Assembly (NCBI GenBank): GCA_937929945.1
Contig: CALFUK010000027.1
Span: forward strand, 1 to 64,000
DNA length: 64,000 bases
Reading direction: 5' to 3'
Source: an uncultured Saprospiraceae bacterium
GTDB lineage: Bacteria; Bacteroidota; Bacteroidia; Chitinophagales; Saprospiraceae
This document shows, in pieces, positions 20,083 through 64,000 of the stretch (within the stretch, counting starts at the first letter, position 1; the number at the start of each line of letters is the position of its first letter). A program made the position numbers and the translations under genes. The notes under the pieces are model-generated. The model was not told the DNA's origin. It ran no database searches and was given only the letters and a program-made list of their open reading frames with translations.

Positions 20083-20580
20083 ATGAGACACGGGAAGAAA
20101 TTCAACCATTTAGGACGGAAGAAGGGGCACAGAAGAGCCACATTGGCTAACATGGCTATATCTTTGATTGAGTACAAAAGAATCAATACGACATTAGCTA
20201 AGGCGAAAGCCCTTCGTGTTTATTTGGAGCCTTTAGTGACTAAGTCTAAGAATAATTCCACGCATTCCAGAAGAGTGGTGTTTGGATATTTACAAAATAA
20301 AGAAGCGATCAAGGAGCTTTTTGATGAGATCGGCGTAAAAGTAGCGGATCGCCCAGGAGGTTACCTGAGGATCGTAAAGACTGGGTTCAGAAAGGGAGAT
20401 GCCGCAGAAATGGCGATGATAGAATTTGTGGATTATAATGAAGTATACAGTAGCTCAAGTGCTTCTAAAGGCGGCAAGAAAACCAGAAGAAGAAGAGGAG
20501 GTAAGGGCGCAGCTACCACAAAAGCAACAGAAGCCACGGCAGCGTTAGCGGCGGCAGTCACTGCTGATGAAGAGGAGTAA
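20083..20580 (+). CDS. rplQ: Ribosomal protein L17
   Basis: L17 lies near the tunnel exit of the 50S subunit. The first 120 or so residues are canonical ([51 protein letters not shown]). At 165 residues it is longer than E. coli L17 because of a C-terminal tail, first Lys/Arg/Gly-rich ([13 protein letters not shown]) and then Ala/Thr-rich with an acidic end (TADEEE). It is the last gene of the ribosomal run and is followed by a terminator. Confidence 0.97.
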
Positions 20581-20606
20581 GTCCCTCAGAAAGACATAAT
20601 GTTGCA

Positions 20607-20641
20607 AAGCCCTTTCCGGATTACCCAGAAAGGGCTTTTTT
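20607..20641 (+). terminator. Rho-independent terminator after rplQ
   Basis: AAGCCCTTTC at 20607-20616 pairs perfectly with GAAAGGGCTT at 20628-20637 (10 bp, 11-nt loop), and the descending arm leads directly into a T-run. This ends the rpsJ-rplQ transcription unit 27 nt after the rplQ stop. Confidence 0.93.
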
Positions 20642-20693
20642 AATTTTGCAGAAAGAGAAATCATATCTACATTTTACGTATAAGTAATATTTC

Positions 20694-20701
20694 TATATTT
20701 G
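20694..20701 (+). promoter_or_regulatory. Promoter -7 element for the carA leader
   Basis: TATATTTG is a perfect TAnnTTTG box. No good TTG lies 19-23 bp upstream; a T-run (TTTT, 20672-20675) is at 18 bp. Transcription would begin near 20708, about 220 nt before the carA start codon, so the structured segment that follows would be transcribed. Confidence 0.55.
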
Positions 20702-20707
20702 CGAATA

Positions 20708-20905
20708 ATTTTGTCAGCTTGAAACTATCTACAATATTGATATAAAGCCGAAGCCGCTGATGGGTTCTGCATAAAGTGATCGAATCATTGGTAGGGTGTC
20801 AATTTGAAGCCTCCCACTGATTCGAAGACCCTGTGCAGGACATTTGATCGGATAAAGTAAATGGAGAATTTCCAGATCGAGCAAAGTAGATAGCTGATCG
20901 TCTTT
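20708..20905 (+). ncRNA. Candidate structured leader of carA or free small RNA
   Basis: The segment can fold into one long closed rod. A basal stem joins 20725-20732 (CTATCTAC) to 20886-20893 (GTAGATAG), extended by 20714-20717 (TCAG) with 20894-20897 (CTGA) across a 7-nt bulge. A middle 9-bp stem joins 20764-20772 to 20833-20841. The apical hairpin 20780-20825 has 14 bp (8 perfect pairs, TCGAATCA with TGATTCGA, then two 3-bp blocks each preceded by a T-C mismatch). Large internal loops (31 and 44 nt) lie between the basal and middle stems. The roughly 190-nt rod with a central bubble is reminiscent of 6S RNA, but I cannot match it to any family. The alternative is a regulatory 5' leader controlling carA. 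Confidence 0.45.
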
Positions 20906-20925
20906 TCATCTTAAAATGTTATCAT

Positions 20926-22038
20926 ATGATAGAGAGCACTCATAAAAAATGTATTCTAGTCTTAGCTGATGGTCTCTCCTTCGAGGGTAAAGCTGCTGGA
21001 GCTACTGGCACAGCCACAGGAGAAATATGTTTTAATACTGGTATGACAGGCTATCAAGAAGTCTTCACTGATCCTTCTTACTATGGTCAGCTGCTGGTGA
21101 CGACTAACGCCCATATTGGAAATTATGGGATCAAAGACACAGAGATCGAATCTGAAAAAATTCAAATCTCGGGTTTGATCTGCAAGAATTTTACCAATCA
21201 GTATTCGAGACAGCAAGCTACCGAGACCATAGATGATTATTTTAAGCGGAATAATATGGTAGTCATTCATGGCATAGACACTCGAGCCTTAGTCAGACAT
21301 ATCAGATCAAGAGGCGCTATGAACGCGATCATATCTTCAGAAGAACTAGATGTCGAAAAGTTAAAATCCCAGCTCAAGGATGTACCCAGTATGGATGGGT
21401 TAGAGTTAGCATCCGTGGTATCCACAGAGGAGAGCTATTATTTTGGAGAGGAAAGCGCTGAGCGTAAGGTAGCCGTATTGGATTTCGGTACGAAGAAGAA
21501 TATACTACGATGTTTCTCCGATCGAGGTTGCTATCTAAAAGTTTTTCCAGCGAAGACACCCTTTGAGACCATTAAGGCATGGAATCCTGATGGCTATTTT
21601 CTTTCTAATGGCCCGGGTGATCCAGCGAGTATGGACTATGCGGTCAAGACAGCTAAAGAAATCCTACATGAAGAGAAGCCTGTGTTTGGTATCTGCTTAG
21701 GTCATCAGATATTGGCATTGTCGGTTGATATTCCGACTTATAAAATGCACCACGGTCATCGAGGGATCAATCAGCCAGTTAAGAATTTGGTGACTGGGAA
21801 GTCAGAGATTACCAGCCAGAACCATGGTTTCGGTGTTAGTCCAGATGCAATACGAGAGAATGCTGACCGGGTAGAGATCACCCACATGAATCTAAATGAT
21901 GATACCATAGAAGGTATCAAAATCAAAGACAAACCTGCCTTCTCAGTACAATACCACCCTGAAGCGGCCCCTGGTCCACATGATGCCAGATATCTATTTG
22001 ATAACTTTATTGAACTTATTGACAAAAACAAAAACTAA
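20926..22038 (+). CDS. carA: Carbamoyl-phosphate synthase small (glutaminase) subunit
   Basis: This subunit hydrolyses glutamine and passes ammonia to the large subunit (CarB, not in the window) for carbamoyl phosphate synthesis, feeding arginine and pyrimidine biosynthesis. The 370-residue product has the N-terminal CPSase domain (GYQEVFTDPSYYGQLLV) and a C-terminal class I glutamine amidotransferase domain with the nucleophile Cys in FGICLGHQIL and the His-Glu pair in VQYHPEAAPGPHD. It is preceded by a long structured leader and followed after 6 nt by eno. Confidence 0.97.
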   Translation: MIESTHKKCILVLADGLSFEGKAAGATGTATGEICFNTGMTGYQEVFTDPSYYGQLLVTTNAHIGNYGIKDTEIESEKIQISGLICKNFTNQYSRQQATETIDDYFKRNNMVVIHGIDTRALVRHIRSRGAMNAIISSEELDVEKLKSQLKDVPSMDGLELASVVSTEESYYFGEESAERKVAVLDFGTKKNILRCFSDRGCYLKVFPAKTPFETIKAWNPDGYFLSNGPGDPASMDYAVKTAKEILHEEKPVFGICLGHQILALSVDIPTYKMHHGHRGINQPVKNLVTGKSEITSQNHGFGVSPDAIRENADRVEITHMNLNDDTIEGIKIKDKPAFSVQYHPEAAPGPHDARYLFDNFIELIDKNKN

Positions 22039-23328
<1,290 letters not shown>

Positions 23329-63511: not shown

Positions 63512-64000
63512 CTGTATTGATTGCTATTGTAATAGGAGAACGATTATTCTGAGAAGAATATGATGAAACATGTTAGTTTTTCTTAAAAGTAGACTCGATC
63601 TGTCGCGAAAGACTTACTCAAGTCCATTCTTCAAAGCCTTTTATTGGCTTCACATAGACTTCATATCATATGGATGTAATTCGCAAGATCATCAGAATAT
63701 ATCTGATTTCAGGATTTGATTGAGTATGATGTCAAACTAATTGAATGAGCAAATATTTTAAAAATCAGCCAAGTTAGTATAAGTCATTATTTTTTTTAAT
63801 TTTGTATACGGTATACAGAATATAGTATACCGTATACGGTAAATTGACTTGATGTATTGCTCTCTTCAATGTTAGGAAAGTCTAACATGCTCTGCCTTAG
63901 CACAGGCTTAGTATGGAATGATAGCTGACTACTATGATGATATGTAAATAGGCATAATCATTTCTATGATAGAGACTTAGAATTATTTGAAATTATAAAC
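63512..64000. other. Non-coding region at the right edge with regulatory dyads
   Basis: No gene is seen in this 489-bp stretch. It has a 6-bp hairpin at 63545-63560 (TATTCT/AGAATA) upstream of the M43 gene, another dyad at 63691-63707 (ATCAGA/TCTGAT), and the promoter-operator complex at 63774-63888 described separately. The regulated gene probably begins beyond 64000. Confidence 0.5.
63774..63888 (+). promoter_or_regulatory. Promoter with stacked palindromic operators
   Basis: TAATTTTG at 63797-63804 is a perfect -7 element, with TTA (63774-63776) at the -33 position. Immediately downstream, GTATACGGTATAC (63804-63816) and GTATACCGTATAC (63825-63837) form a perfect 13-bp inverted repeat with an 8-nt centre. 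TACCGTATACGGTA (63828-63841) is itself a 14-bp perfect palindrome. A third dyad, ATGTTAG/CTAACAT (63869-63888), follows. Dyads at the transcription start are typical of repressor operators. Confidence 0.65.

Follow-up and report, generated by a model that had tools for sequence, protein, structure and literature searches.

Gene content and promoter of the carA locus

The window analysed here is a stretch of 64,000 nucleotides at the start of contig CALFUK010000027.1, from the draft genome of an uncultured Saprospiraceae bacterium (G000; 5,065,311 bases in 211 contigs, 99.77% complete). Coordinates are those of the window, and features lie on the forward strand unless stated otherwise. The open reading frame at 20083-20580 was identified as rplQ, encoding ribosomal protein L17 (PF01196, E 6.3e-35), and is followed by a terminator-like hairpin and T run read directly from the sequence (20606-20641); a similar hairpin and T run follow rplQ in the two congeners, G001 and G002. 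Downstream are the reading frames of carA, the small chain of carbamoyl-phosphate synthase (20926-22038; PF00988 and PF00117), whose start agrees with that in G002, and, 6 nt beyond it, of eno, enolase (22045-23328; PF00113 and PF03952), which is probably carried on the same transcript. The best matches of carA in named genomes were from Saprospiraceae, the first at 74% identity, in a search from which records very near the window may be absent.

Within the gap between rplQ and carA, we identified a 23-nt promoter block (20679-20701) that recurs in both congeners, unchanged in G001 and with a single difference in G002. It ends in the -7 element TATATTTG (20694-20701), which fits TAnnTTTG, the form in which the -7 consensus of Bacteroidota is given in two published accounts (PMC7366714, PMC9723704), and from which transcription would be predicted to start near 20708. 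Across 20560-20960, promoter-like sites are no commoner than chance would give (2, with 1.6 expected). The window has strict -7 elements 212, 224 and 277 nt before carA; the closest relaxed one, at 119 nt (20799-20806), falls within the hairpin described below. The promoter that the first-pass annotation had placed before carA is confirmed, as one of Bacteroidota type, by the block common to both congeners.

Distance between promoter and carA in related genomes

The start of carA follows the end of the -7 element by 23 nt in G001, by 16 nt in G002 and by 224 nt in the window. We examined 82 carA loci (80 from the named-genome search, together with L003 and L004); rplQ was upstream in 40, and was absent, or the sequence was cut off before it, in 42. 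A strict TAnnTTTG element was present in 24 of the 40 rplQ-carA gaps, the nearest lying 16-87 nt from carA in all 24 and at most 27 nt from it in 20, on carA start codons that were set by script in the relatives and may err by a few codons. Relaxed -7 elements were identified in 39 of the 40 gaps, with none in L036, and the nearest was within 87 nt of carA in 38 of these 39, the exception being L022, at 219 nt. Gap length by itself is not extreme in the window (345 nt, against 367 in L022, 1132 in L038 and 1916 in L023). The L022 gap contains short repeats of the CTGC type, and is by eye unlike the segment found in the window.

The short promoter-to-carA distances in the congeners and other relatives, compared with 212-224 nt here, thus identify an insertion in the carA leader (20713-20904, edges approximate), private among the genomes examined and absent from G001 and G002. 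The most economical reading of these sequences would be that this lineage gained about 190-200 nt. The same distances, together with the promoter block in the congeners, support the original placement of the element in the carA leader behind its promoter.

The insert has a G+C content of 42%, against 32% in the preceding 131 nt. It is single copy in G000 by both BLAST and model search, the other 14 BLAST matches at E<=10 spanning 15-29 nt. No clean target-site duplication was seen by eye at its edges, and the relatives are too diverged to fix the empty site exactly. None of its six reading frames gave a Pfam match at E<=1; six-frame translation yields a 10-codon open frame, MENFQIEQSR (20861-20893), a candidate leader peptide for which the evidence is the existence of the frame. 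Elsewhere in this genome, near the end of a contig, we observed a CCGTAGGTAC...CTCGGTAG motif that recurs in near-identical form, both directly and inverted (L142, about 73-230, in G000:C6), possibly a dispersed repeat.

Predicted structure of the leader

The sole part of the insert with structure clearly beyond chance is a 78-nt imperfect hairpin of 30 pairs (20764-20841; -35.1 kcal/mol), which folded alone has a z of -6.33 and was equalled by none of 200 shuffles. Among 78-nt windows taken at a step of 2 from 500 shuffles of the insert, none matched this energy, the best reaching -31.4. The arm 20764-20795 is 75% complementary to 20810-20841, and the arms are nearly without indels. The middle stem reported previously (20764-20772 with 20833-20841) is present, its 10 pairs having probabilities of 0.95-1.0, as is the apical hairpin (20780-20825), in which the first 8 pairs have probabilities of 0.98-1.0; the latter has 18 pairs in the minimum-energy fold, not the 14 originally counted.

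The hairpin is more stable on the forward strand than on the reverse (-35.1 against -29.7, a difference of 5.4 kcal/mol), a slight hint in favour of a role as RNA, and selection could maintain a hairpin of such stability. The relatives available for judging its decay or constraint are two congeners, with carA sequences 78% and 81% identical. Stable folds are not rare: in a comparison covering 39,730 non-coding bases (as defined by open reading frames of at least 100 aa) out of 362,026, 10 other 78-nt places beat the hairpin in its sampled register (-31.4), reaching down to -38.3, and 2 other places fold better than its best register (-35.1).

The two arms of the basal stem (20725-20732 and 20886-20893) form a perfect inverted repeat, and its inner six pairs have probabilities of 0.92-0.94 when only the leader is folded, about 0.64 once 60 nt of carA are included and 0.84-0.85 with 100 nt. 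The fold of 20720-20898 was matched by none of 200 shuffles (z -4.60), that of 20708-20925 by 1 of 200 (z -2.56), and that of the whole insert by 3 of 500. The strength of the whole-insert fold comes from the hairpin, since the remainder, with the hairpin swapped for a small loop, has a z of -0.50 and was matched by 140 of 500 shuffles. Thus, the basal stem proposed by the first-pass annotation does pair perfectly, but without the hairpin it is no better than chance, and the larger architecture built upon it, in which about 190 nt would close on itself as a rod with a central bubble, is unsupported.

For comparison, we folded 447 windows of 180 nt across the 64 kb (218 intergenic, on both strands, and 229 others), in which the best window on the grid at this locus ranked 13th (z -3.89). 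The strongest fold among the scanned windows (z -6.24 at 63692, reverse strand) lies in an AT-rich non-coding region at 63512-64000, where an inverted repeat, GTATACGGTATAC / GTATACCGTATAC (near 63804-63842), looks from its sequence like a putative operator.

Distribution of the insert in other genomes

We searched for orthologues of the insert, and could not find the element in either of the two congeners with BLAST or with a covariance model. Within the family sample of 398 genomes, BLAST at E<=0.05 returned matches in 50 (own genome included in both counts), the non-self matches spanning 18-45 nt. At 29 matched loci (L103-L131), 25 of the matches lie in stop-to-stop frames of at least 193 codons, the remainder being L105, L113, L115 and L131; no common structure was seen when L105, L115 and L131, with the coding locus L124, were read with their open reading frames and folded. 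A covariance model built from the one sequence recovered, at E<=0.1, its own copy and the hairpin of that copy on the other strand alone, across 398 family and 395 phylum genomes (samples that share genomes); this model is inherently weak (0.59 bits per position) and was run with stricter filters in the large searches, and a much diverged homologue could escape it. Of the 40 loci preceded by rplQ, 37 were searched with the model (leaving out L023, L049 and L058), giving two weak matches, one with E 1.4 and one with E 9.8, both outside the gap to judge by their coordinates.

Plasmid and phage collections each yielded one marginal match, 25 and 32 nt long, both with E 0.7. The short matches seen in L005 and L006 resemble chance hits, and two patterns searched in IMG/VR identified three viral places with surroundings unlike the insert by eye; a search of IMG/VR with rplQ found no relative. 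Covariation in the stems and conserved spacing among related gaps had been suggested as a check on the element: no relative carrying it was found in the genomes searched, and hence none in which compensatory changes or a conserved spacing could be read.

Comparison with known RNA families

The initial judgement that no known riboswitch motif is recognisable here was borne out, the 64-kb window containing no Rfam 15 match at gathering score. A permissive scan of 20580-20960 (E<=10) produced 14 matches below threshold, and none of them is contained entirely within the insert. The top-scoring of these, the PyrG leader, lies on the rplQ terminator (21.6 bits against 65), and that with the lowest E value is Atu_C9, on the reverse strand (E 0.24; 13.1 bits against 40).

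6S RNA has a closing stem and a central bubble that imitate an open promoter, and it binds RNA polymerase and templates product RNAs. The insert is like 6S RNA (RF00013) and 6S-Flavo (RF01685) in its rough length and rod-like outline. Neither family was matched in G000 at E<=10, nor in the stretch itself. The RF00013 model is insensitive in this group, finding nothing in 20 of 20 relatives-set genomes at E<=1, although it did score over its cut-off in 4 of the 14 controls; RF01685 passed its cut-off in none of the 14. Both negatives are weak by themselves.

SRP RNA was likewise rejected as a candidate: the stretch gave no match to it, and the G002 copy (L161 1501-1598, reverse strand) is by eye unlike the insert. 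We additionally observed that small SRP RNA (RF00169) was detected at E<=10 in 18 of 20 relatives-set genomes, 16 of them over cut-off and including both congeners, the misses being G000 and G005, in a search that scored first 150 and then 122 of the 210 first-look candidates. The DNA of the G002 SRP locus with part of its neighbouring gene gave chance-like matches alone in G000. The miss in G000 is probably an assembly gap or a missed candidate, with real loss still conceivable.

Origin and possible roles of the insertion

We consider it probable (roughly 0.6) that the lineage of this species acquired a segment of about 190 bp between the conserved carA promoter and the start codon, and that this segment is an ordinary insertion of fold-back type. 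The core of this insertion would be the 78-nt imperfect inverted repeat, and its arrival would have extended the 5' leader of carA-eno, previously about 10-20 nt, to about 218 nt, adding a stable hairpin, such that the insert would be transcribed within the first 218 nt of the carA-eno message. The nearly indel-free arms, with mismatches facing each other, point to a decayed inverted duplication or a fold-back insertion, perhaps a small mobile one; a mobile origin is something we infer, since there are no other copies and no clean target-site duplication seen by eye.

Fold-back and MITE-like insertions occur in bacterial intergenic regions. The insert resembles these in being short and non-coding, in containing an imperfect inverted repeat and in sitting between a promoter and a gene, but differs in being single copy in its own genome, where the multiple copies by which MITE-like elements are recognised were not found by BLAST or model search. 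Such an insertion may have little or no dedicated regulatory function, with a possible effect on message stability or translation. In a fold of the leader extended by 60 nt of carA, unpaired probabilities are 0.33-0.94 over the eleven bases that precede the start codon, and 0.05-0.42 for the last base of that codon and the bases that follow. Messages in Bacteroidota are described as lacking Shine-Dalgarno sequences, with structure tuning initiation (PMC6847099), and a modest effect of the insert on translation is therefore possible.

The insert might alternatively be a recently gained, lineage-specific cis-regulatory leader of carA-eno, acting as an attenuator, a riboswitch-like RNA or a protein-bound hairpin, which we regard as unlikely. 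Its position between a conserved promoter and carA, the hairpin far beyond chance, and the mostly paired bases from the end of the start codon onwards, which could affect translation, are all consistent with such a role, as is the presence of attenuator-like parts, namely the 10-codon frame and a weak alternative hairpin (20875-20899, -6.1 kcal/mol) followed by TCTTTT. However, the relatives do with a short leader, the genomes searched show no conservation of the element, and the position of enolase close behind carA would make it odd for the unit to be controlled specifically by pyrimidines or arginine. The terminator scan lists no terminator here, which is weak evidence, as the same scan (loop limit 8) also fails to list the evident rplQ hairpin. 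A conserved leader responding to pyrimidines or arginine, along the lines that the first-pass annotation suggested, is not supported: promoter-to-start distances in relatives are short, and the element was not found in them.

Long leaders have precedents in this phylum: 64 structured 5' transcribed regions are catalogued in Flavobacterium psychrophilum and long leaders are noted in Bacteroides thetaiotaomicron (PMC9723704, PMC7366714), in accounts that give median lengths of 24 and 32 nt for the usual 5' UTR. The insert is like those reported in forming a structured leader behind a TAnnTTTG promoter, far above the usual 5' UTR, but differs in not being found in the relatives searched and in being known here from sequence alone. 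A title-level literature search gave no Bacteroidota carA leader among the matches listed. It is distinctly unlikely that the insert is a newly arisen, lineage-specific cis-regulatory RNA, formed recently by insertion behind a conserved promoter and linking both carA, and hence carbamoyl-phosphate synthesis, and enolase to a signal of some kind.

We consider it very unlikely that the promoter at 20694 instead drives a separate small RNA of about 190 nt, with carA expressed by read-through or from another promoter. The promoter is well placed and the hairpin would give such an RNA a stable core, the TCTTTT at 20901-20906 could end the transcript, and the relaxed -7-like element 119 nt before carA could be offered as the other promoter; but that element falls inside the hairpin, the scan of limited sensitivity lists no terminator, and no credible homologue was identified in the genomes searched. 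In both congeners, moreover, no strict element lies closer to carA than the promoter block, indicating that the block is most likely the carA promoter. Finally, the 6S-like identity first entertained is extremely improbable, even as a diverged 6S RNA in a group to which the family models are insensitive, as the insert has no covariance-model match in G000 although RF00013 passes its cut-off in some controls, its closing stem and central bubble are not beyond chance and, a stronger argument than the model negatives, a 6S gene should be common to the congeners, whereas this element was found neither in them nor in the rest of the family sample.

The comparison with relatives settled what folding by itself could not, and the locus offers a caution that a sequence that folds well, in a likely position behind a real promoter, can still be an insertion absent from close relatives. 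As it stands, the finding is of little import, a private hairpin in the carA leader of one species; should it turn out to be regulatory, it would show a leader RNA shortly after its emergence.
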